Shown: in pieces, positions 3,044 to 31,614 of the stretch | How the letters are laid out: each line of letters begins with the position of its first letter | Numbering within the stretch: the stretch's first letter is position 1 | IMG/VR virus record: IMGVR_UViG_3300042465_004654 | Coordinates: 1-31,614 of that record | Reading direction: 5' to 3' (one strand) | DNA from: a virus | Length of the DNA stretch: 31,614 bases | Position numbers and translations under genes: made by a program | Notes under the pieces: generated by a model | The model's database searches: none | Told to the model about the DNA's origin: nothing | The model's input: only the letters and a program-made list of their open reading frames with translations

Positions 3044-3183
3044 TGCCGCTCAAGAAAGGCACAAGCCGCAAGACGATCGAAGCCAACATCCGCAAGCTCA
3101 TCGACGAGAAGTATCCGCCGAAGCAAGCGGTCGCGATCGCCTACGACAAGGCCGGCAAGGCCAAGAAGGGAGGTGGCAAGTGA
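3043..3183 (+). CDS. Tiny basic phage protein (MPLKKG family)
   Basis: A 46-aa, very Lys-rich protein beginning [19 protein letters not shown], with the core [16 protein letters not shown]. This pattern recurs in many environmental tailed phages: a basic N-terminus, a short helix, then a KQAVAIA-type helix and a Lys tail. To my knowledge it has no assigned function. The start shares one base with the previous stop (TGATG), and its stop overlaps the next GTG start. It belongs to a coupled string of four small genes that ends in the endolysin. A nucleic-acid or virion association is a guess from the charge only. Confidence 0.7.
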
Positions 3184-4966: not shown

Positions 4967-5302
4967 TCACAGGTCGTCCCGGGCGGGTACGTCCGCAGGT
5001 TTCGATCGGGGCCCCCAGACATTGGGCGTGCCGTCAAGCATCCCGTTCCACTGGTCGACAGCGCGCGAAGCTGCAAGCGGCCCAGTCGGGTCGGAATACA
5101 CTGGCAATGGTCCTGCCATAAAGCAGCCGGAACACAGCAAGACGGCACAGAACGCAACGCCTGTCGCATCTACATGCACTTCGATGTGCGGCCGCTCTTT
5201 GCAGAAGGGGCAAGTTCGGACCCCCGGCAAAGCCGGAATCACGTAGGCGATCTTGTCGAATGGGTGCTCAGATCGTTGTGTCGACTTCTTGGCCCGAGGC
5301 AT
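4967..5302 (-). CDS. Lar-like restriction-alleviation family zinc protein
   Basis: A 111-aa protein with the treble-clef/zinc-ribbon layout of the Lar family: CPFC (residues 31-34), a beta stretch, CSGC (57-60), MAGPLPVYS and an A-x-x-x-WN motif (AVDQWNGM, 82-89). Known Lar protein from Rac prophage reduces EcoKI restriction by modulating the modification subunit; many phage relatives are annotated only by this domain. A basic 15-residue N-terminus (PRAKKSTQR) precedes the domain, and a Pro/Arg tail follows. The start shares a base with the previous stop (TGATG). An anti-restriction role is a family inference. Confidence 0.65.
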   Translation of the reverse strand: MPRAKKSTQRSEHPFDKIAYVIPALPGVRTCPFCKERPHIEVHVDATGVAFCAVLLCSGCFMAGPLPVYSDPTGPLAASRAVDQWNGMLDGTPNVWGPRSKPADVPARDDL

Positions 5303-5655: not shown

Positions 5656-5990
5656 TGTCCCCTCAGCTGTTCGATGGTTGCGATGGCTGTCGTGATGCCT
5701 TGCGGGAGGCCCGCAGCTCGAGGCTCGGCTTCAATGCCGCGCCACAGCTGCGGACGATCGCACTGCGCTCGCCACACGATGTTCTGACTCTTGGCTTCCC
5801 AGGGCAGCGCAGTGCCTCCGAGCTTCCATCGGTCGCTGATGTCTGGCACATCCTCGTCGACCTTCCACCATTGGGCGCCTTTCTTGAGGTACAGCCTCAC
5901 GACCTGACCCCGGCGATTCAGATGCAGGAATCCGTACCAGCCCGCGCCACGATCGGCGCGCAGCTGGTCGAGCACGGTGCGCTCACTCAC
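5652..5990 (-). CDS. Hypothetical protein downstream of exonuclease
   Basis: A 112-aa, Trp- and Arg-rich protein (WYGFLHLNRRGQVVRLYLKK, WWKVDEDVPDISDRWKLGG, NIVWRAQC, QLWRGIEAEPRAAGLP). I do not recognise a family. The beta-like N-terminal half with basic residues could bind nucleic acid. The start is a GTG (5990, with an adjacent GTG at 5993) overlapping the 3' end of the exonuclease gene by 8 bases. The longer open frame reaching back to 6701 lies wholly over the exonuclease and is rejected. Co-translation with the exonuclease suggests a recombination or replication accessory. Confidence 0.6.
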   Translation of the reverse strand: MSERTVLDQLRADRGAGWYGFLHLNRRGQVVRLYLKKGAQWWKVDEDVPDISDRWKLGGTALPWEAKSQNIVWRAQCDRPQLWRGIEAEPRAAGLPQGITTAIATIEQLRGQ

Positions 5991-6792
5991 CACTGACACC
6001 GCTAGGCAGCGTCGCAGCCTGCACATCGCCCCGGCCCGGCCAAGTGTTGCTGCGCATGCAGTCGAGCACCTTGCGAACAAGCTCGAGGTGATCGGCCATC
6101 GCGCCCGCGATCGTGCCCTGGTCCCATTCGACGGCGGTCGCATCCCACGGCGCCTTGTCTTCGGCGACCACGGTGTACCAGCGCACCTGCGTCGCGTTGA
6201 GGTCGACGCCGTAGTGATGCGCTGCAGCGTACGTGTAGTGCGCGAGCTGCAACATCCAGCCGTACTTGCGCGCAGCCCAGGCGATGAGCTCCGCAGTCGT
6301 GTCGCCGAACGTTTTGATGTCGGCGATGATGATCCCGTGCTCAGGGCTGTAGTGCATGATGTCCGGCTTACCCTTGCACAGAAGCAGCGCGTCTCCGAGG
6401 TCGAAGTCCCACACCACTGGTTCTTCGCACACAGTCTGAGGCAGCGACAGCACCCAGCGGAGCCACTGGTTCCGCCCGTAGGCGTTGGCGATGTTGATGG
6501 CCTGTTCGTACTCGTTGAGGCTGAGCACGTTCTTGCCGACGCTGTTCTGCAGGAACGCTGCGTATTCCTTGTTGCGAGGGTCCTTGCGGCCTTCCCACAC
6601 AGCGATCTGATCGTGGGCGGACATGGGCTCCAGCACCAGCGCATGCACAGCGCGCAGCATCGCATACTCTGCAGCGTTGTCTTCTTGGTGGTCGACCGCA
6701 TGCCGGTAATGCAGCGGCGACTTGCGCATGTGCTTCAGCGTGCTGTAGTTCACGCCCGGATGGGCTCGGTAGTCGGCGTCAGTGAGAAACAT
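5983..6792 (-). CDS. PDDEXK (RecB/RecE-type) exonuclease
   Basis: A 269-aa protein with the phage PDDEXK exonuclease pattern: YSTLKHMRKSPLHYRH near the N-terminus, HALVLEP (His 50), CKGKPDIM (Asp 144), IIADIKT (Asp 158, Lys 160), then WMLQLAHYTYAA with the Gln 182 / Tyr 186 helix typical of RecB-family nucleases. It would resect double-stranded DNA 5'-3' to give single strands for the Erf annealing protein four genes upstream. Length and motif order match exodeoxyribonuclease 8-like phage proteins. The Gly usually before the HALxLEP motif is replaced (MLRAVHALVLEP). The start at 6792 has GGAGG 8 bases upstream and overlaps the resolvase gene by 14 bases. Confidence 0.85.
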   Translation of the reverse strand: MFLTDADYRAHPGVNYSTLKHMRKSPLHYRHAVDHQEDNAAEYAMLRAVHALVLEPMSAHDQIAVWEGRKDPRNKEYAAFLQNSVGKNVLSLNEYEQAINIANAYGRNQWLRWVLSLPQTVCEEPVVWDFDLGDALLLCKGKPDIMHYSPEHGIIIADIKTFGDTTAELIAWAARKYGWMLQLAHYTYAAAHHYGVDLNATQVRWYTVVAEDKAPWDATAVEWDQGTIAGAMADHLELVRKVLDCMRSNTWPGRGDVQAATLPSGVSGE

Positions 6793-7270
6793 GGTAGCGG
6801 CCTCCGTTCTGAATGTTGTAGGTCACGGCGATGGCGAGGGCGGCCCAAGCATGGGACGTCACCCCGTAGAGGGGACCTGGCTTGCGTCGGTCGCCGAGCG
6901 CTCTTGCCTTGTCGCCTCCGTGGAGCTCGATGAGGGCTTGCCTCACGAGCGCGTCTTTGTTCCCCTTCGTTGCGCAGCCCAAGGCCTGCAGCACATCACG
7001 ACGGGGAATGAACGCTGCAGGCTGGTCGAGCTGGTCGCACAGCTCCATGCAGCGACCGATGACTTCGGTTGTGCGGACAACCTGAGTCGAGGGCGGCCCG
7101 GCCTGCGTCCGTTCGCACACGACCCTGTAGGGCCGATGCTCACGCACCCAGGTCCGGACATCTGCCCACTCAAGGCGGGACTGTGCTGCGACGACGAACG
7201 GCGTGTTCGTGATGTCGTACAGCACAAGCCCCGAATGCTCTGGGCCTGGGTCAAGCCCGAGCAGGATCAC
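6779..7270 (-). CDS. RuvC-like Holliday junction resolvase
   Basis: A 163-aa RNase H-fold nuclease. Visible motifs are LGLDPGPEHSG (Asp 7), VVCERTQ (Glu 53), a conserved NKDALVRQAL (Asp 106) and the phage-family signature KPGPLYGVTSHAWAALAIAV near the C-terminus. It would resolve four-way or branched DNA made by recombination or replication before packaging. In bacterial RuvC the last motif supplies an acidic or His residue and a final Asp. Here His 140 is present, but the final Asp position reads Ala 143, as I recall for this phage subfamily. The start is GTG in a GTGA overlap with the preceding gene. Confidence 0.85.
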   Translation of the reverse strand: MILLGLDPGPEHSGLVLYDITNTPFVVAAQSRLEWADVRTWVREHRPYRVVCERTQAGPPSTQVVRTTEVIGRCMELCDQLDQPAAFIPRRDVLQALGCATKGNKDALVRQALIELHGGDKARALGDRRKPGPLYGVTSHAWAALAIAVTYNIQNGGRYHVSH

Positions 7271-7632
7271 TGCTCCGTCTCCACCAGCCAGGGCGAGGGC
7301 TGATGGTCGGGATTCCAGCGACCCAGCGACTTGCCCCCTGGGGGCAGCGCAAGCTTGCGGTAGTCCACCGACTGTTGCGTGCAGTACGTGATATTGCCGT
7401 GCACCATCGACAACGACAGATACGCAAGCATGCCTTCGCCGACCTGCTTTGCGGTGGTCTCACCACCGCGCGCGTTGCCCGCATGCCGTTGCACCAGCTT
7501 CAGGAAGTCCTTGAAGCCAAGGTGCAGGTACACGCCATGCGTGTTCACTTGCACGCTGTAGTCTGTGATGCCTGCTTCCTCGAGGGCAGCGGCGGCCCGA
7601 TGCGCCCAGTGAACGCGAACTGCGATGGTCAT
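7267..7632 (-). CDS. Hypothetical protein in recombination operon
   Basis: A 121-aa basic protein. The N-terminus (VRVHWAHRAAAALEEAGITDYSVQV) looks like helix then strand, followed by GVYLHLGFKDFLKLV. The middle is Gly/Lys-rich (NARGGETTAKQVGEGMLAYL), and the tail has VDYRKLALPPGGKSLGRW. I do not recognise the family and see no catalytic motif. It lies between erf and the resolvase with coupled junctions on both sides (ATGA and GTGA), so a recombination accessory role is likely from context only. Confidence 0.6.
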   Translation of the reverse strand: MTIAVRVHWAHRAAAALEEAGITDYSVQVNTHGVYLHLGFKDFLKLVQRHAGNARGGETTAKQVGEGMLAYLSLSMVHGNITYCTQQSVDYRKLALPPGGKSLGRWNPDHQPSPWLVETEQ

Positions 7633-8381
7633 GCCTCACCTCCCGACTTCCGCGCGCGGCGCGTCTTGGGTTCTTCGGCCTCGATCGGCGCTGCGTGCGA
7701 CGCCAGCGAAGCGAGGCGCTGAGACAAGAACTGCTCGATGGTTGCAGCGCCGACGGTCTTGAGCCAGCTCAGCATCTGCGCTTGCTGATGCGCAGGCATG
7801 TCGGCGGGTGCAGGCTTGTTGTGTGCTTCGCAGTACATCTTCAGCGCATCGAGCTCCATCGGCGCAATGGCTTCAGCGATCTCTGCGTCGGTCATCTGGC
7901 GCGCAGCCGGAGGCGCAGCGCGCGGCGTGAACGCACGCACCGGCGAAGGGCTGGAGCTTGCGGCGCCAGATGCGGCGCCCGATGCGTCGTTGCCGTCATC
8001 GTCGCTCTGGATGACGCCGCAGATCGACGCCAACGTGTAGCGGCGCAGGTACGAGATCGCCGAACCGACCGCATGCGCGTCCTTCTTGCCAGCGACCGGC
8101 ATGCTGCAGATGGACTTCATCCACTGCCCGGACTCGTGGGTGATCAGCGTCGTCATGTGGATGACGTCTTCGGCCAAGACTGGATGCTGCAACACGCACA
8201 GGCCGGAGGCGTTGTAGGCAGGCAAGATCGCCTCGAGCACGCTCGCAAGGCTCGTGTACTTGGTGCGGAAGGCAGGGTTGTTGGCGTCCTTGAACGCGCG
8301 GCCCATCATGCCTTGAGCCTTAGCAAGAGCGCCGAAGAGCTCAGCACAGCTGTCGCTGTAGAAGACGTTGGTGTTGTACAT
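7629..8381 (-). CDS. erf: Erf-family single-strand annealing protein
   Basis: A 250-aa protein of the ERF superfamily, which anneals complementary single strands in RecA-independent recombination and genome circularisation (P22 Erf). The N-terminal domain shows NPAFRTKYTSLASVLEAILP (35-54) and the hallmark KKDAHAVGSAISYLRRYTLASICGV followed by DDDGND (99-132). A flexible Ala/Ser/Pro linker and a helical C-terminal domain (TDAEIAEAIAPMELDALKMY...) follow, ending in a basic patch (KTRRARKSGG). It is the second gene of the leftward early operon, 3 bases after the RHH gene, with AGGGGAAC as ribosome site. It pairs functionally with the PDDEXK exonuclease downstream. Confidence 0.92.
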   Translation of the reverse strand: MYNTNVFYSDSCAELFGALAKAQGMMGRAFKDANNPAFRTKYTSLASVLEAILPAYNASGLCVLQHPVLAEDVIHMTTLITHESGQWMKSICSMPVAGKKDAHAVGSAISYLRRYTLASICGVIQSDDDGNDASGAASGAASSSPSPVRAFTPRAAPPAARQMTDAEIAEAIAPMELDALKMYCEAHNKPAPADMPAHQQAQMLSWLKTVGAATIEQFLSQRLASLASHAAPIEAEEPKTRRARKSGGEA

Positions 8382-8384
8382 GTG

Positions 8385-8552
8385 TCAGTTCCCCTGTTCG
8401 TGAGCGTCGTTGACAAGCTTCTCGATGAGTTTGTTGATGGAACGCAGCCCGCTGCGAGCACGAATACCCTCCGCTCGTGCCCACACGACAGGCGACAGCT
8501 TGACTTGGTGGAAGTGCTTCTCTGTGTTTGGCATCTTCTTGTCGGTCATCAT
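8385..8552 (-). CDS. Ribbon-helix-helix repressor candidate
   Basis: A 55-aa protein: a charged arm (MMTDKKMPNTEK), a short strand HFHQVKLSP, then two helices VVWARAEGIRARSGL and SINKLIEKLVNDAHEQG. This is the beta-alpha-alpha layout of Arc/CopG-type repressors, where the strand of a dimer reads the major groove. I chose the ATG at 8552 because GGGGAGGG stands 5 bases before it; the longer frame starting at 8633 would run through the operator/promoter DNA. It is the first gene of the leftward early operon. Four repeats lie over and behind its own promoter, so autoregulation is likely. Confidence 0.75.
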   Translation of the reverse strand: MMTDKKMPNTEKHFHQVKLSPVVWARAEGIRARSGLRSINKLIEKLVNDAHEQGN

Positions 8553-8574
8553 CGCGCCCTCCCCGGTGCGCCCC

Positions 8575-8631
8575 AGCATGCTAAGGCATGCGCGCGATAC
8601 CGTCAACACCCAACAGCATGCAATAGCATAC
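8575..8631. promoter_or_regulatory. Operator cluster O1: four AGCATGC-type repeats
   Basis: Two pairs of heptamers occur at 8575 (AGCATGC), 8585 (GGCATGC), 8615 (AGCATGC) and 8625 (AGCATAC). Within each pair the spacing is exactly 10 bp, about one helical turn, and each unit holds the near-palindrome GCATGC. The first pair covers the -10 and spacer of the leftward promoter; the second pair lies behind its -35 and before the rightward gene at 8644. The same repeats occur at 11261-11287. Confidence 0.75.
8578..8606 (-). promoter_or_regulatory. Leftward early promoter
   Basis: On the minus strand, TTGACG (8606-8601) is followed after 17 bases by TAGCAT (8583-8578). This matches sigma70 -35/-10 at 5 of 6 and 4 of 6 positions with ideal spacing. 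Transcription would begin near 8571, about 20 bases before the RHH start codon. The -10 lies inside the first operator repeat. Confidence 0.65.
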
Positions 8632-8643
8632 AAAGGCGAGAAC

Positions 8644-9204
8644 GTGCCCGACGTCGCCGCTCTCTACGTTGATCGAGGTGGAGTCTATGACCGTCCCGAT
8701 GTTGACTTGTGGGACATCAATAGAGATGCTCGGTTTTACTCTGGCCCCTTGCCTGTAGTCGCGCATCCGCCATGTGAACGATGGTCGCGCCTTGCGCACA
8801 TCTGGGCTGCAGTGCCTGGTCGGCCCGGCATCGGAGAAGATGGCGGCTGTTTTGCTGCGGCTCTTGCTGCGGTTGAACGCTACGGTGGCGTGCTAGAGCA
8901 CCCCCTTGGATCGGCTGCTTGGCCTGCGTTCGGCTTGCCTGCGGCGCCAGTATCTGGATGGGCACGCACGCTGTATCGGCCTGGTTGGTCATGCCGAGTC
9001 GAGCAAGGTTGCTACGGTCACTTTATGCCGAAGCCGACGTTGCTGTATTATGTTGGCGCGACACCTCCTCCGCCTTTGCTTTGGGGCGCATCAAAAGCAT
9101 CCGGCCGTTTTGATAGGACGTCGAGTAGCGATCCGCGGCGCAGGCGAACACCGCTCGCCTTTGCGGAGTTGCTGCTTTCGATGGCCAGAGGTTCACGTGC
9201 TTAG
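8644..9204 (+). CDS. Truncated C5-methyltransferase-like phage protein
   Basis: A 186-aa protein. Key blocks are VYDRPDVDLWDINRDARFY, VVAHPPCERWSRL (Pro-Pro-Cys44), GGVLEHP (Glu 85), and EQGCYGHFMPKPTLLYYVG. The order PPC-x-x-W-S, then a Glu-containing motif, then a Q/YG/K-P-T block recalls motifs IV, VI and VIII of C5 cytosine methyltransferases. The N-terminal SAM-binding motif I is absent, however, so catalysis as such is doubtful. Similar stand-alone proteins occur in many phages with unknown function. The GTG start follows AAAGGCGAG just past the second operator pair. A/T-ending codons are more frequent than in neighbouring genes, which hints at separate acquisition. Confidence 0.6.
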   Translation: MPDVAALYVDRGGVYDRPDVDLWDINRDARFYSGPLPVVAHPPCERWSRLAHIWAAVPGRPGIGEDGGCFAAALAAVERYGGVLEHPLGSAAWPAFGLPAAPVSGWARTLYRPGWSCRVEQGCYGHFMPKPTLLYYVGATPPPPLLWGASKASGRFDRTSSSDPRRRRTPLAFAELLLSMARGSRA

Positions 9205-9424
9205 CGCCGACAAAGTCGCCATCACTGCAGCGCGGTTGTTGCTCCCGACGAAGCGGCGTGTCCCGCTTGCCGACCTGCGTTGGCAGGCCGAGCGCGTCAT
9301 CGAGGCGCGGCGTCGGGAGCATCCGGATCTCGAGCGCCAACCCCGGCCGGCGCAGCTGGCAGTGTGGGAGAGCTGGCACGATGACATTGCAGCGGAGGTT
9401 GCGCGCAGAGCAGAAGCTCTGTAG
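9197..9424 (+). CDS. Small hypothetical protein
   Basis: A 75-aa basic, helical protein (ITAARLLLPTKRRVPLADLRW, ERVIEARRREHPDLE, AVWESWHDDIAAEVARRAEAL). The GTG start overlaps the last codons of the methyltransferase-like gene by 8 bases and has AGAGG upstream. The family is not recognised. It is the last gene before a strong terminator, so this gene and the previous one form a short two-gene operon. Confidence 0.5.
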   Translation: MLSADKVAITAARLLLPTKRRVPLADLRWQAERVIEARRREHPDLERQPRPAQLAVWESWHDDIAAEVARRAEAL

Positions 9425-9458
9425 AAAGGCGCGCGCAGAACGCAATGCAACGAGGGGG

Positions 9459-9495
9459 CGGCATCCGGAATGGTCCGGGTGCCGTCTTTGCTTTT
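9459..9495 (+). terminator. Rho-independent terminator
   Basis: An 11-bp stem with one G-T pair, CGGCATCCGGA / TCCGGGTGCCG, around a 4-base loop ATGG, followed by TCTTTGCTTTT. It closes the two-gene operon 8644-9424. Confidence 0.85.
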
Positions 9496-9667
9496 GACTT
9501 GTCGATTCGCGCTGCTTCTGGTAGGCAAGAGCGGGGCGCCGTAGAGCCCCGGCTGTCCTCCTGTCCCCGCGCGACTCAGCCCGCGCACCCCGTCCGTCGG
9601 CCCGGAGTAGCTACCGGGACCCGGCGGGCGGTTGGGCAGGGGAGGCCATCTCTCGACAGGAGAAGAC
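9494..9667 (+). promoter_or_regulatory. Leader of replication operon, with dyad at 9601-9618
   Basis: No gene is seen here. A TTGACT (9494-9499) could be a -35, but the expected -10 (TCTGGT at 17 bp) is poor. At 9601-9618 there is a loop-free dyad, CCCGG-A-GTAG/CTACCGGG (8 bp with one bulged A), that could be an operator. The start codon at 9668 has a clear AGGAG site. The placement after a terminator argues that a promoter for the replication genes lies here, possibly needing an activator. Confidence 0.35.
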
Positions 9668-10702
9668 ATGACCGACGATGAAGCCCCGAACAGGGGCCGT
9701 TCGCGCACATCTGCGCGTCAGACGGCCGCGCCAACTGGCGAAGGCTGGGACCCGATTGAACGATGCGACTGGGAAGCGGTTGCGTCGGCACTGATGAAGC
9801 CGTGGCCCTTAGGCGCGCAACGACATGACCTGCGGTACTGGGCAAGCCGTCAACGAGCCCACAAGGGCGACAGACCCGGCTACCGCCTGCTTGCGGAGCG
9901 TTGGGGCATCACCGAGAAGGCGGCCCGCATCGTCTGCAGCGACGTTGAATGGTGGGCTGATCCGCGCTTCGGCGACCCCGATCCTAAAAGGGCGCAGCAA
10001 GGGCGCACCGAGGGCGCAGCAAGGGCGCAGCAAGGGCGCACCGAGGGCGCACCTGTACCCGTGGATGACGACGTTCTCAACGTAAAAGGGCGCACCGAGG
10101 GCGCAGCAAGGGCGCACGAAGGGCGCACCGAGGGCGCAGCAAGGGCCCCTAAAGATAACAGCAACAGCAACACCAACAGCCACACCGACATCGAACAGAT
10201 CTTGTCGGCTACGCCGACGCAAGAGCGTCCGAAGCCGGAGAAGGTCAAGCGGACAGCAGAAGCAGCGCAGCTGTTGGCGCTGCTTGATGCGCTGCGTCTG
10301 ATGCGGCATCGAGGCCGCAAGCTATCGGAGGGCACCTGGGTCCCGAAGCTCGAGAAGGCCTTGGCGAAGCGGAGCGCGCAGAGCATCGTCGACGGGTACG
10401 TCTGGATGCTCCGAAGTCCGCAGGCCGCCTTCTTGCGGGGCGAGGATGGGAGAGGCACGACCGACTACACGGTCGACTTCTCGACTTGCCTTGCGCATCC
10501 CGAGTACGCCGATCGCCGTCGCTGGAAGGGCAGTGAAGGCCCGTTGCAGCCTGAGCTCGATCGGTGGGAGGCTGCCTTAGCAGCTGGCGAGCCAGAACCG
10601 GCATGGGTGGAGCGATGGGCGGCCGTCGATGCGTTCGCAGCCGATCGCGCTCGAGCACGGATGCAACCGATGGAGGATGGCGACTATGACGAGATCTTCT
10701 AA
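9668..10702 (+). CDS. Replication initiator (lambda O-like) carrying internal iterons
   Basis: A 344-aa protein. Residues 26-97 form a winged-helix-like domain (WPLGAQRHDLRYWASRQ, GYRLLAERWGITEKAARIVCSDVEWW). Residues 108-129 and 140-161 are repeats of RAQQGRTEGAA type, encoded by 11-bp DNA repeats. These are followed by a polar Asn/Ser/Thr linker (KDNSNSNTNSHTD) and a C-terminal domain of about 130 residues (ALLDALRLMRHRGRKLSEGTWVPKLEKAL...). The layout of N-terminal DNA-binding domain, origin DNA read as a linker, and C-terminal interaction domain parallels lambda O, whose gene also contains the origin. The likely partner is the host or co-encoded helicase loader. The ATG at 9668 is chosen for its AGGAG site; the 9632 ATG lacks one. 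Assignment as initiator is inferred, not from a named domain. Confidence 0.65.
   Translation: MTDDEAPNRGRSRTSARQTAAPTGEGWDPIERCDWEAVASALMKPWPLGAQRHDLRYWASRQRAHKGDRPGYRLLAERWGITEKAARIVCSDVEWWADPRFGDPDPKRAQQGRTEGAARAQQGRTEGAPVPVDDDVLNVKGRTEGAARAHEGRTEGAARAPKDNSNSNTNSHTDIEQILSATPTQERPKPEKVKRTAEAAQLLALLDALRLMRHRGRKLSEGTWVPKLEKALAKRSAQSIVDGYVWMLRSPQAAFLRGEDGRGTTDYTVDFSTCLAHPEYADRRRWKGSEGPLQPELDRWEAALAAGEPEPAWVERWAAVDAFAADRARARMQPMEDGDYDEIF
9989..10152. repeat. 11-bp iteron array, candidate replication origin
   Basis: The unit is AGGGCGCANNN. Cluster 1 has six units starting at 9989, 10000, 10011, 10022, 10033 and 10044. Cluster 2 has five at 10087, 10098, 10109, 10120 and 10131, plus a degenerate one at 10142. 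Both clusters begin TAAAAGGGCGCA and are separated by 32 bp. Spacing is exactly 11 bp, so the codon phase shifts from unit to unit, which argues for selection on DNA rather than protein. The DNA after the array (10150-10200) is A-rich and less GC-rich, as expected for an unwinding element. Confidence 0.75.
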
Positions 10703-11255
10703 AAGTATGATCGCGTATCTGCGCGACAACCTCGGCAAGCTGGCAGAGCGGCACAACAGCACAGCACCGGACGATGAACGCAACATCAGCCCGCACGACA
10801 TCGACGAAGCCGTCAACGTGTGGCTTGAGATGCGTGCGCTCAACGACAAGGCCGCGCGCGACACGTTGCTCAAGACGCTGGAAGGAAGCGAGTGGGTCAA
10901 GCCAGGCGCGATTCGCAGCGCTGTCTCGAGGCGCATCCTTGGGCCACGGGCGACGAAGGCCGTCGGTGAAGTCTGGGTTCGCTGGAATCAGCTCGAGGCC
11001 GGATCGTGGACCGTGAAGCCGGACGTCGAAGCTGCAGCCAAGCTGCGCAGCGAGCTCGAGCATCGTCGCGCTGCAGCGCTGCGTGAAGGCGACCCCGAAG
11101 ACCTGGTCAAGTGGGCCAAGACCGAAGTGCCTTGGCTTGGTCGCTTGCTCGGTGATGAGCCAGAGCCGCCGCTACCCGACAAGAAGCGGCACTACTGCGC
11201 TGCTCCCAACGAGATTGCAGCGGCGGTCGCAAAAAGAATCATCCGGGCCGGTTGA
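10686..11255 (+). CDS. Replication-operon protein, unknown (helicase-loader position)
   Basis: A 189-aa, Arg/Ala-rich helical protein that overlaps the initiator gene by 17 bases; GGAGG lies 9 bases before the ATG at 10686. It begins MTRSSKSMIAYLRDNLGKLAERHN and contains SPHDIDEAVNVWLEMRAL and WVKPGAIRSAVSRRILG. The C-terminus has VPWLGRLLGDEPEPPLPDKKRHYC. In lambda-like arrangements the gene after the initiator supplies helicase loading, but I see no Walker A motif, so this could only be a non-ATPase loader or primosome adaptor. The family is not recognised. Confidence 0.6.
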   Translation: MTRSSKSMIAYLRDNLGKLAERHNSTAPDDERNISPHDIDEAVNVWLEMRALNDKAARDTLLKTLEGSEWVKPGAIRSAVSRRILGPRATKAVGEVWVRWNQLEAGSWTVKPDVEAAAKLRSELEHRRAAALREGDPEDLVKWAKTEVPWLGRLLGDEPEPPLPDKKRHYCAAPNEIAAAVAKRIIRAG

Positions 11256-11287
11256 TGGTTAGCATGCTGTAGCATACTACAGCATGC
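11252..11287 (+). promoter_or_regulatory. Operator cluster O2 and possible promoter
   Basis: Three repeats in perfect 10-bp phase: AGCATGC at 11261, AGCATAC at 11271 and AGCATGC at 11281. They match the elements at 8575-8631. A TTGATG (11252-11257) could act as -35, with CATACT (11273-11278, 15 bp) or TACTAC (11275-11280, 17 bp) as a weak -10 inside the repeats. The gene at 11323 would be the first controlled. Confidence 0.65.
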
Positions 11288-11322
11288 CGCCACATCCAAC
11301 GAGGCGAGCGACAGGAGCAACC

Positions 11323-11643
11323 ATGACTGACACCGCAAAGGCCGCACGCGGCATCATCGTGATCATCGCAGCCGCGCTGTGCATCGCTGTCGACAAGGTC
11401 GAAGCGCACATCGACGAGCTCACAAGGCGAGACCTGGAGCAGGCAGACTACGAGTTCAGGCGCTCCGGAGCCATTCAAAAGGCAGAGGCCGCCGTGTTGT
11501 GGCAGATGCAGCTCGAGGGCCGGTGCGCGCCTTCGATCGTCGCTGCATCTGCGATTCCTTGCACGAAGCAGGTCAAGCCTGTTGTTCGGCCCGAAGAGCA
11601 CGTGTGGACTGTAGGGCCGGCGGTCAAGCGAGGTGCGCGATGA
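11323..11643 (+). CDS. Small single-span membrane protein
   Basis: A 106-aa protein with a hydrophobic segment at residues 8-22 (GIIVIIAAALCIAV) that looks like an N-terminal anchor. A charged helix follows (DKVEAHIDELTRRDLEQADYEFRR), then a less ordered C-terminus with two cysteines. AGGAGC stands 5 bases before the ATG. The gene lies immediately behind operator cluster O2 and is coupled by ATGA to the winged-helix gene. Such operator-controlled membrane proteins in phages sometimes alter the host envelope or exclude other phages, but there is no direct evidence for that here. The family is not recognised. Confidence 0.55.
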   Translation: MTDTAKAARGIIVIIAAALCIAVDKVEAHIDELTRRDLEQADYEFRRSGAIQKAEAAVLWQMQLEGRCAPSIVAASAIPCTKQVKPVVRPEEHVWTVGPAVKRGAR

Positions 11644-12095
11644 ATGGCCGTGTCCATCTTGATCGTGTCGCTGAACTCCGTGGCATCTGGGGCCGCAATG
11701 GCCTAAGCATCACAGAGCGCGCGGTTTTAGGTTGTCTGCTCGTTCAGTCCTGTGACGATAAGCCTGCAAAACGCACTCGAAGCTGTTGTAGCTATAGGCA
11801 GATAGCAGCGCTCACTGGACGCTGTGAACGTTCAGTAGGCAGAGCGCATCGCAGCTTGCGAGCTCAAGGTGTGCTTGTCGATGTGCGCCAACGTGGTGTG
11901 AACGAAGTGAATCCTGGTGCGTATGAAGTTGGCTTCGACCTATCGCGCATCCCTTCCGCTCATCAGCGCGCTGATCGGGCAGCCATACATGAACGCGCGG
12001 CGATTGTCGCTTGGCTGCAGGCCATCGAGGACGATGGGCGAGGCAGCACGTGGCAGTGGGCGGACGCCATCGCGCGGGGCGAGCACGTGAAGTAG
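11640..12095 (+). CDS. Winged-helix DNA-binding protein with ERGEH-type tail
   Basis: A 151-aa protein. Residues 20-85 read as a winged helix: LSITERAVLGCLLVQS, then SYRQIAALTGRCERSVGRAHRSLRAQGVLVDV, in which the second block is a clear helix-turn-helix with wing. The C-terminal 34 residues (HERAAIVAWLQAI... WADAIARGEHVK) match the tail of the small zinc protein at 4151-4399. The start at 11640 overlaps the previous stop (ATGA). A/T-ending codons are common, unlike the structural genes. A role as transcriptional regulator or replication accessory is likely; late-gene activation would fit its place just before the late unit, but this is inference. Confidence 0.6.
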   Translation: MNGRVHLDRVAELRGIWGRNGLSITERAVLGCLLVQSCDDKPAKRTRSCCSYRQIAALTGRCERSVGRAHRSLRAQGVLVDVRQRGVNEVNPGAYEVGFDLSRIPSAHQRADRAAIHERAAIVAWLQAIEDDGRGSTWQWADAIARGEHVK

Positions 12096-12116
12096 CCGGC
12101 AAGTGGGCGGCGACTA

Positions 12117-12161
12117 GGCGCGGCGGTATGCTGTTGGTCGCAGCCGTCGCGCCGTTGTTTT
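12117..12161 (+). terminator. Rho-independent terminator
   Basis: A 10-bp stem with one G-T pair, GGCGCGGCGG / CCGTCGCGCC (12117-12126, 12144-12153), a 17-base loop, then GTTGTTTT. It ends the rightward early unit 22 bases after the winged-helix gene. Only about 40 bases remain before the terminase gene, so late transcription may depend on read-through past this site. Confidence 0.7.
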
Positions 12162-12201
12162 GGCGATGATGGCGGGCAGCACCCTGCATGCAGGATTGCC
12201 G

Positions 12202-12660
12202 ATGAGCATCAAGAGACCCGTGATTAGGCTGCCTGACGGCAAAGAGCCGCAGTGCTGGGACGAGCTGACGGACACACAGAAGCGCGTCGTGTCGTGGATG
12301 GTCGACAACGAAAAGGACCATCGGGCCGTCATCGCAGAGAGGGTGACGAACGGTGTCGCCGTCTATCAGCGTTGGGGCGTGGACAACCTCTACAAGTGGG
12401 CGGACTGGTACAAGGCAACCAAGCCGCCACCGCCCCCCGACCCGGTCGCGCTCATCGAGGCCGCGCTGCCTGTGCTCACCGAGCGCGCGCTGCAGTTGCT
12501 CCGAGAGACGCTCGAGGCCGGTGAGGGCAACGCGACAGCGGTGCGGGCGGCACAATGGACGCTCGACAAAGCCTACGAGTTCGCGAAGGCGCAGCCGAAG
12601 ACCGAGGGCACGAAGCAGGCGATGGCCGAGCTTGAGGCTGTGCTCCGTGTGGTGAGCTGA
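12202..12660 (+). CDS. Terminase small subunit
   Basis: A 152-aa protein directly upstream of, and coupled (TGATG) to, the large terminase. It is helical throughout: ELTDTQKRVVSWMVDNEKDHRAV, then VYQRWGVDNLYKWADWYK, a poly-Pro hinge PPPPPD, and an amphipathic C-terminal half (LIEAALPVLTERALQLLRETL). This fits the DNA-recognition and oligomerisation domains of small terminases, which form rings that select viral DNA for packaging. I prefer the ATG at 12202 (AGGA 8 bases upstream) to the ATGs at 12160/12166. Identification rests on position, size and fold-like composition. Confidence 0.7.
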   Translation: MSIKRPVIRLPDGKEPQCWDELTDTQKRVVSWMVDNEKDHRAVIAERVTNGVAVYQRWGVDNLYKWADWYKATKPPPPPDPVALIEAALPVLTERALQLLRETLEAGEGNATAVRAAQWTLDKAYEFAKAQPKTEGTKQAMAELEAVLRVVS

Positions 12661-31000: not shown

Positions 31001-31614
31001 CGTGCATTGTCAGAGGGCGTAGCCGATGGCTTGTTCACCGCCATCGATAGCGTACCGGTTCGAGCTCGAGGCGCGACCGGCGCCTACCTACAGGATGCGA
31101 TCGAGCACGCAGCCAGCATCGGCCGTCGCGACTCTCAAAGCCGCTTCACCTATGGCTACATCCTTCCGAACGTGCCTGTGCAGTTGGGACGGCTTGCGCA
31201 GCTTGGCTTGTTGCCGTTGGCGACGATCGGCGCGCGACAGACGCTCGAAGCGGCTGGCTTGGTCGGCCGAAACGCCATCGACTACGCGACCGAGGCCGTC
31301 TTCAATCGGCGCATGCTCGGCACCGGGATCGTCGATGAGGCTGGCGTCTACTACAGCCCCAAGATGCTCGATGACCTGGCGCAGTCCTACGGCGTCGGCA
31401 CATCAGCCGTTGAAGCGGAGCGCGTCGGCTCGCTGGGGCGTGACCTGTTGCGCGAAGCACAAGCGGCTGCGGCTACGCATCCGCGCCTTGCGGCTGTGCT
31501 TGAGACTGCCAACCCGCTCGATCGTGGACTGTTCTTGCGGTTCGCCGAAGCGCTCGAGCTCAACTTCCGGAGAAGCGTCTTCGAGCTCGCCATCGCCGCA
31601 GGTCGCTCGCCAGC
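28046..31614 (+). CDS. Giant internal virion (DNA ejection) protein, 5' part
   Basis: Starts with ATG in an ATGA overlap (GGAG 10 bases before). It runs open to the window end and continues at base 1 in the same phase, ending at 1187, for a total of 1542 aa in the circular map. The N-terminal 120 residues are coiled coil (MLDAAEKLIAKGLKAEAKEL). A hydrophobic patch lies around residues 440-470 (FIAGLVPEVILPAGPELLGG), and another follows around 1043-1060 (VQLGRLAQLGLLPLATIGAR). Most of the rest is Ala/Arg/Glu helix. T7 gp16 (1318 aa) is the nearest analogue in position and size, but I see no transglycosylase motif. A lytic domain may therefore be missing, or carried by another protein. Confidence 0.75.
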   Translation, partial: MSTQAEMLDAAEKLIAKGLKAEAKELLELAQQMQPTPPLTAQAAPFPSFAPTGEMQRRIEQAAEQAAREQIEARGPFIVGDPLKQEQEAARLAREQLERQRERLVVAGETRPMEPGTAAPFSRASRVVEAPGVLVAPVEGTGVLSSEELARREAEALVPVEGLPAPLDVEKLPAPEAARFYRDPQTGKLRRPTVREELAEAFQLQTEVSEERFREEERVRGEQQREIDRRIEAGEDVPVFERYVGPLVSGVLTKEQQGAGVVETPLGAALRSALGWVSVAAAEGYFRGLGYEVDERGLPRNPDDLGFEIAKLRERIGLPEVLFPTQALEQAATAYADAIGADPETRTTITNAIAAIPQVAVPLPGVATQRQTRKVTAYDPEGRRRVTDVEAPDPLEEPQAFLEFEARRITENLAKGRTLGDEWADTPAVRDYYARVTGDPDAAFIAGLVPEVILPAGPELLGGIGYVADIARAFAKAERLKEAQAAQKAAQAAARSRDLVRGLAETNPARARLPALEVRAAQLEQRALEAADQAAANVSPSVVQAVARKAAKLAVVDEAKQQAFVDKLGSVNFPSDVARVADEAGLDDADKARVVSLTRANTPSDYVMISDTIGVPRDMAQEASQRLAAHRRATFVRTPDEVAAALRQEAAQAAGPVQTKLYSLAARAPADVDAIRKEAVIALRQSARARGVAANEAEAFARSFDQRPPGEALPELARYATWSDVPAAARRQAQAAWETKFLDQLGPMARRSADLTRAQVWFDGTESVFNGLTARKLRALAPFVPLDRGTLAAARTAREIQAKGISSLRDLKAKLTDATKRTGSVDGALDELMAGELSRSVAARTPPAQAWEALFETMYGARKDAAKERAAQLVDLEAYPTIGQVRALDRLLEAQGIVTGKAPDFRAAFLKVIHEQGLKKALSAEARDIYAAQAAVDLAPGQTLQDIIQRFPQPGAVRTLPVPELTTGAPSTRIALVDPTAGEVERALSEGVADGLFTAIDSVPVRARGATGAYLQDAIEHAASIGRRDSQSRFTYGYILPNVPVQLGRLAQLGLLPLATIGARQTLEAAGLVGRNAIDYATEAVFNRRMLGTGIVDEAGVYYSPKMLDDLAQSYGVGTSAVEAERVGSLGRDLLREAQAAAATHPRLAAVLETANPLDRGLFLRFAEALELNFRRSVFELAIAAGRSP
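31488..31614. repeat. Terminal direct repeat, copy 2 (circle closure)
   Basis: Identical to 1-127, as described for copy 1. The reading frame of the giant gene passes through the repeat without change of phase, which would be unlikely if the two ends were unrelated. Confidence 0.95.

Follow-up and report, generated by a model that had tools for sequence, protein, structure and literature searches.

The window analysed here is the whole 31,614-base stretch of the virus record IMGVR_UViG_3300042465_004654 (G+C 64%). Two clusters of 7-base-pair (bp) repeats in this window, at 8575-8631 and at 11261-11287, lie at two promoters, one of which is the promoter of the gene for a 55-amino-acid (55-aa) protein that is likely to have a ribbon-helix-helix (RHH) fold. 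We propose, with a probability of about 0.68, that the clusters are tandem, phased operators of this protein, and that the protein is an autoregulating repressor acting at both promoters. That the 55-aa protein is the binder, that it has a dimer fold, that it represses rather than activates, and when it acts are what we infer. If the interpretation is correct, two blocks of genes in an uncultivated phage lineage are under one 55-aa repressor, whose operator code is easy to read; otherwise, the protein is an ordinary phage autorepressor.

Phased repeats at two promoters

The first-pass annotation of this DNA had described AGCATGC and AGCATAC heptamers in strict 10-bp steps. All seven heptamers are at the positions claimed; the unit at 8585 is GGCATGC, so that the family is RGCATRC and not strictly AGCATRC. 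The first cluster comprises four units in a single 10-bp register (8575+10n), with places three and four vacant. The single motif AGCATRC is without enrichment in the window (15 observed vs. 9.7 expected, with at least 15 in 8 of 100 shuffles). The spaced pair AGCATNC-N3-AGCATNC occurs three times in the window and in none of 100 shuffles. Among 36 GYATRC-type hexamers in the window, four pairs lie within 12 bp; each has a spacing of exactly 10 bp, and each belongs to one of the two clusters. Of 300 Markov sequences, 8 contain a 10-bp GYATRC pair and none contains two. The counts bear out both the strict 10-bp phasing and the claim that isolated GCATGC sites outside the clusters are unphased. 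The pattern GYATRC-N4-GYATRC occurs at four places in the window and at four in a relative's 22.9-kb contig, all in the two clusters, with no occurrence of the reversed pattern used as control.

The two clusters were also compared with each other. When the two promoter regions (120 bp each) were compared in a motif-blind way, their similarity was equalled by 3 of 400 random region pairs, the random regions having been drawn to exclude both promoters and, for the window and for contig L015 (see below), an 11-bp repeat in coding sequence. With a matrix built from second-cluster units only (window, close relatives and the locus L012), the next-ranking window positions are 8615 (23.4 bits) and 8575 (21.2 bits), and the first unrelated place scores 10.3 bits. 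We conclude that the repeats are real, are phased, and are exclusive to two promoters.

A sigma-70-like scan of 7200-12300 found the leftward promoter, and no other site, with 0.7 such sites expected by chance; its −10 element is overlaid by operator pair 1, as the first-pass annotation had stated for the −10 element of the RHH gene. The second cluster stands, as had also been stated, ahead of the operon for a membrane protein and a weakly winged-helix-like protein, at the promoter preceding the 11323 gene, where its three units sit in the promoter spacer, on the −10 element and over the start region. The place of this rightward promoter is fixed because an equivalent promoter is kept in relatives: TTGACG-17-TACTAC in L007, TTGACG-17-TACTGT in L047, TTGACG-17-TACTGG in L015, L127 and L016, and, in L012, TGGACA-17-TATGCT spanning the unit array of that locus. 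For the divergent gene at 8644, the scan of the same interval gave no promoter.

Conservation of the heptamers in close relatives

One other contig was found to encode an identical 55-aa protein (the L188 contig, also represented by L001, L004, L044, L046, L048 and L051), and it retains both clusters; the repeats therefore persist in a close relative that keeps the protein. Between the window and L188 there are two substitutions in 93 bp of the leftward promoter region and three in 95 bp of the rightward promoter region, none of them in a heptamer. The rightward changes recur in L007 and L011 (the L011 contig being the L003 contig), again with unchanged triplet heptamers. The locus L012 (81% identity in the protein p10686 and 72% in the membrane protein) has four diverged units, AGTATGC, AGTATGC, GGCATGC and CGCATGC, at 10-bp steps at the equivalent place. 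In sequence comparison, the heptamers are conserved while flanks and spacers vary.

The close relatives also bear on the hypothesis that the direct repeats are incidental, that 11261-11287 functions as a hairpin or as one palindromic operator, and that its likeness to the first cluster arose by chance. The window indeed contains, as GCATGCTGTAG-CATA-CTACAGCATGC, a perfect 11-bp inverted repeat. In L188, L007 and L011, however, the first triplet spacer is changed from TGT to TAC, which disrupts the inverted repeat (9 of 11 arm positions still match) without touching the direct repeat or its heptamers. The four units of L012 are direct repeats, and the matrix ranks the first cluster above every other place in the genome apart from the second cluster itself. 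The incidental-repeat hypothesis as a whole is extremely improbable, and a hairpin or single palindrome at 11261-11287 was rejected because close relatives break the arms yet keep the heptamers.

The 55-aa protein

AlphaFold2 predicts, for the window protein, helices at residues 21-34 and 39-53 (predicted local distance difference test score, pLDDT, 71; N-terminal part at low confidence) and, for the L015 orthologue (five sequences), a strand at 11-15 and helices at 20-33 and 38-58 (pLDDT 83.2). The predictions show the strand-helix-helix topology in about 45 residues that characterises the MetJ/Arc/CopG superfamily. Structure matches are mostly RHH or RHH-like proteins, including Arc, CopG, ParG, MatP, PutA and NikR, none significant alone; the best structural Z score is 5.2 over 46 residues at 3.6 A. 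Based on these models, we consider an RHH fold likely, not proved.

Searches for further copies gave no homologue in phage records (tblastn, E up to 1) and none confirmed in genome_contigs. In viral_contigs, alignment found two contigs with the 55-aa protein; the L015 copy was reached via terminase and Erf.

A cousin lineage with a different motif and spacing

In two cousin contigs, L047 and L015, the gene immediately preceding erf encodes an orthologue that is 33-35% identical to the 55-aa protein and is also matched by hidden Markov model; an alignment of the three sequences has 18 invariant columns. Neither cousin contig contains a phased GYATRC pair anywhere along its length. Instead, between −35 and −10 the cousin rightward promoters carry two copies of GACGCAC with a 9-bp step, and just past −10 the cousin leftward promoters carry two copies of GGCGCA with the same 9-bp step (in L047, a 54-aa gene intervenes between the leftward promoter and the RHH gene). 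The paired units lie in the rightward-promoter spacer in L127 and L016 as well as in L047 and L015. The pattern GRCGCA-N3-GRCGCA occurs exactly twice in each whole contig (25,897 bases for L047, 31,281 for L015), once per equivalent promoter and in the same orientation relative to transcription at both, and the reversed pattern does not occur; the expectation in shuffles of the parts analysed is 0.05 for L047 and 0.10 for L015. In 161 other loci (1.32 Mb) there are five occurrences; these control loci are all except those hand-assigned to the two lineages, and several are overlapping pieces of one contig and so are non-independent. We regard the cousin sequences as good, albeit not decisive, evidence that a single regulator with an altered recognition sequence serves both promoters.

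The proteins differ too. The stretch that includes the two inward hydrophobic residues of the predicted strand reads HQVKLS in the window protein and TNIKID or TNIKIN in the cousin proteins; the DNA-facing residues of this strand are assigned by analogy with Arc. Both cousin proteins (L047 4828-4998, L015 2293-2472) have a tandem-duplicated N-terminal strand region (KIDEATRTV ... KIDEATRTM), which is missing from the window protein.

More distant orthologues are encoded in L031, L033 (E 3.6e-6) and L034 (E 0.017), in divergent orientation before the small-terminase gene. In the small-terminase promoter region of two of these loci (L033, about 5160-5205; L034, about 3130-3180), TGTCA and TGACA alternate at 8-9 bp steps, possibly as another phased operator.

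According to a broader and more tentative hypothesis, to which we give somewhat less than even odds, the proteins form an undescribed phage RHH repressor family in which protein and all operators change together while both regulated promoters are kept, with replacement of subsite (GYATRC vs. GRCGCA) and dimer spacing (10 vs. 9 bp) and with a duplicated DNA-contact strand in one lineage. If so, the lineages are a natural series in which a regulator rewrites its recognition code yet retains its regulon, and the paired lineages with 10-bp GYATRC and 9-bp GRCGCA are a compact test of co-evolution of RHH protein, subsite and dimer spacing.

The cousin lineage also bears on the hypothesis that there is one regulon with a different binder: the winged-helix protein (11640), p10686 (10686), the protein of open reading frame (ORF) 9668, or a host regulator. 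The winged-helix gene sits inside the regulated operon, p10686 and the 9668 protein are, like the RHH protein, kept in L047 and L015, and GCATGC is palindromic and readable by many dimeric regulators. Set against these points, one of the two sites is the RHH gene's own promoter, the motif differs where the predicted DNA-contact strand of the orthologue differs (HQVKLS vs. NIKID/N), and the two-promoter layout is present in L015 and L047, although no relative of the winged-helix protein was found there (tblastn, E 1e-3). The winged-helix protein was rejected as the common binder on this last ground, and a different binder of any kind is, in our judgement, unlikely.

Proposed mechanism and weighing of the evidence

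According to the proposal that the 55-aa protein is the repressor, RHH dimers, one per heptamer, would bind cooperatively along a single face of the DNA at intervals of one helical turn (10 bp). At the leftward promoter, dimers on pair 1 would cover the spacer and the −10 element, and the protein would therefore limit its own synthesis and that of the Erf, resolvase-like and exonuclease VIII-like genes. Pair 2, in register 40 bp upstream, may reinforce leftward repression by cooperativity or may affect the divergent 8644 gene. The three units of the second cluster would cover the spacer, the −10 element and the start region of the rightward promoter, so that the same protein would hold the membrane/winged-helix operon and perhaps also the downstream packaging genes.

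The first-pass annotation had spoken of a switch linking both early units. One type of putative operator is present at both promoters, is kept in the L188 contig, and belongs to a layout that recurs in the cousins; that both linked units are early is a weaker suggestion. The leftward unit looks early from its gene content (Erf, exonuclease VIII-like and resolvase-like genes). The rightward operon leads directly into the genes for terminase, portal and capsid, and could contribute to late expression.

Several results weigh against the proposal. With respect to the protein, Pfam gave no family at E up to 10 for any of the three orthologues and PHROG gave no match for the window protein, and it is because no family profile matched that we call the protein RHH-like; short, diverged RHH proteins often escape profiles. 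The structure search gave no match at E 0.001 or better (best Foldseek E 0.67 and 2.0). With respect to the promoters, the rightward promoter has 7 of 12 consensus matches, is weak by consensus, and falls below the listing of the sigma-70-like scan. With respect to relatives, L010 keeps the membrane gene (85%), lacks the cluster and has a different gene upstream, in a sequence that does not include the RHH gene; and a by-eye look at L031, L033 and L034 found no evident shared phased pairs. With respect to the cousins, the GRCGCA motif was chosen by eye; the motif-blind comparison was equalled by 192 of 400 random region pairs for L015 and by 182 and 43 of 400 for the two possible leftward regions of L047; and a matrix built from cousin rightward units places the leftward site third in the L047 contig part, behind a stronger place, and outside the top eight in L015. 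Finally, the unrelated contig L006 has four AGCATGC units at 10-bp steps with no RHH gene recognised among nearby ORFs.

The L006 array (486-522) consists of four copies of TTTAGCATGC between near-identical TAATGTTTCATTT...GAAACATTTA flanks. An array from the pattern scan in L008 lies within an ORF, and in the overall assessment the L006 and L008 arrays were weighed neither for nor against. Pattern matches in the Erf-bearing loci L102, L103 and L109 are at the start of an ORF that looks helix-turn-helix-like, not beside an RHH gene.

Gene layout

The record is probably a complete phage genome, because a perfect 127-base direct repeat stands at both ends (1-127 = 31488-31614). Coordinates of the features discussed are collected in Table 1. 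In leftward order from 8552, the genes are those for the 55-aa protein, the Erf-like protein, a protein of unknown function, the resolvase-like protein and the exonuclease VIII-like protein. In rightward order from 8644, they are those for the phrog_12600 protein, proteins of unknown function, the 11323 and 11640 proteins, the small terminase (named by position), the large terminase, the portal and the capsid.

Table 1. Positions of the genes, promoters and putative operators in the window.
Feature	Position	Strand	Basis and remarks
Operator pair 1 (putative)	8575..8591		AGCATGC 8575-8581, GGCATGC 8585-8591; over spacer end and −10 of leftward promoter
Operator pair 2 (putative)	8615..8631		AGCATGC 8615-8621, AGCATAC 8625-8631; upstream of leftward −35, just before GTG 8644
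Operator triplet (putative)	11261..11287		AGCATGC 11261-11267, AGCATAC 11271-11277, AGCATGC 11281-11287
Leftward promoter	8578..8606	−	−35 TTGACG 8606-8601, 17-bp spacer, −10 TAGCAT 8583-8578; 9/12 consensus matches
Rightward promoter	11252..11280	+	−35 TTGATG 11252-11257 (TTGACG in relatives), 17-bp spacer, −10 TACTAC 11275-11280
55-aa RHH-like protein gene (MMTDKK...HEQGN)	8385..8552	−	ORF; first in leftward operon; orthologues upstream of erf in L047, L015; strand-helix-helix prediction
Erf-like single-strand annealing protein	7629..8381	−	PF04404 E 2.8e-19; phrog_2324 E 4.7e-37; second in leftward operon
Holliday-junction-resolvase-like gene	6779..7270	−	phrog_1770 E 1.7e-9; leftward operon
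Exonuclease VIII-like gene	5983..6792	−	phrog_412 E 6.3e-34; leftward operon
Divergent gene, phrog_12600 (unknown function)	8644..9204	+	E 5.1e-46; GTG start 12 bp past operator pair 2
106-aa protein, single hydrophobic N-terminal stretch	11323..11643	+	ORF; first gene past operator triplet; relatives at equivalent place in L007, L012, L010
151-aa protein, weakly winged-helix / replication-initiator-like	11640..12095	+	matches E about 0.006-0.07, below cut-offs

Three further features were observed along these gene blocks. A phrog_12600-like protein matched in Pseudomonas phage Persinger (L192 6001-6444; NC_054149.1 14753-15196) lies between annotated gp39 and gp40, where the gene seems to be unannotated in NC_054149.1. 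Within ORF 9668-10702, 11-bp tandem repeats (GGGCGCACCGA/GGGCGCAGCAA) at 9985-10146 encode an RTEGAAR-like repeat, and the L015 orthologue of this ORF carries similar repeats. Between the winged-helix and small-terminase genes, at 12105-12180, there are G+C-rich hairpins with TATGCT, which is also present in L013, L014 and L016; this region may be a terminator or a late promoter.

Comparison with known systems

Arc and Mnt of phage P22, and CopG, are small phage or plasmid RHH repressors, and Arc and CopG each act at essentially one operator region. The predicted fold of the 55-aa protein is similar to those of CopG (Z 4.9) and Arc (Z 4.8), with sequence identity of only 16-20% in the structural alignments.

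Further comparison is with RHH systems that bind repeated subsites. RelB of relBE resembles the proposed repressor in that RHH dimers lie side by side on one DNA face with cooperativity set by spacing (PMC2812701), and differs in having contiguous 6-bp repeats and a toxin co-repressor. An adjacent toxin gene, as in a type II toxin-antitoxin system, is absent here: the operon continues from the RHH gene to an Erf-like gene in the window, in L015 and in L047. ParR/parC of the pB171 type resembles it in having an RHH protein, 10-bp direct repeats and autorepression (PMC5016525), and differs in that ParR works with a ParM filament and has larger arrays.

These systems raise the hypothesis of a plasmid-living phage in which the arrays serve for partition, like parS/omega or parC/ParR, and control transcription only secondarily. 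RHH centromere-binding proteins do use tandem short repeats over promoters: ParR has 10-bp repeats (PMC5016525), and the 7-bp heptads of omega extend over three promoters (PMC9499535). The window proteins scanned, which are part of the gene set, include no ParA, ParM or TubZ family member, and the window has 2+2 and 3 units vs. the at least four contiguous units required for ParA activation by omega (PMC9499535). We regard a partition function as very improbable.

Under the proposal of an autoregulating repressor, the nearest precedent is omega (ParB) of plasmid pSM19035, a small RHH protein with tandem 7-bp units in arrays of varying length that overlap three promoters, that of its own gene among them; it binds a single repeat weakly and two repeats well (PMC9499535, PMC5016525). 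The defining feature of an omega-like arrangement is present in the sequence layout of the window, where phased, tandemly repeated subsites occur both at the promoter of the protein's gene and at a second promoter; the likeness drawn here between omega and the 55-aa protein is one of layout. The two differ in that omega heptads (WATCACW) are contiguous, number 7-10 per site and serve partition with ParA, whereas the phage units, also 7 bp long, are separated by 3-bp gaps (10-bp step) and number 2-4 per site, and no partner ATPase was found among the proteins scanned. The term "undescribed" in the first-pass annotation holds for the protein family, which matches neither Pfam nor PHROG, and not for the principle, since omega of pSM19035 is already known as a small RHH repressor that uses tandem subsites at its own and other promoters (PMC9499535, PMC5016525). 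Among the open-access papers listed in searches, no phage RHH repressor with this layout appeared. We conclude that, with omega as precedent, the way of working is known, and that what is new is this example, in which the joint change in motif and spacing from one sister lineage to the other is of most interest.

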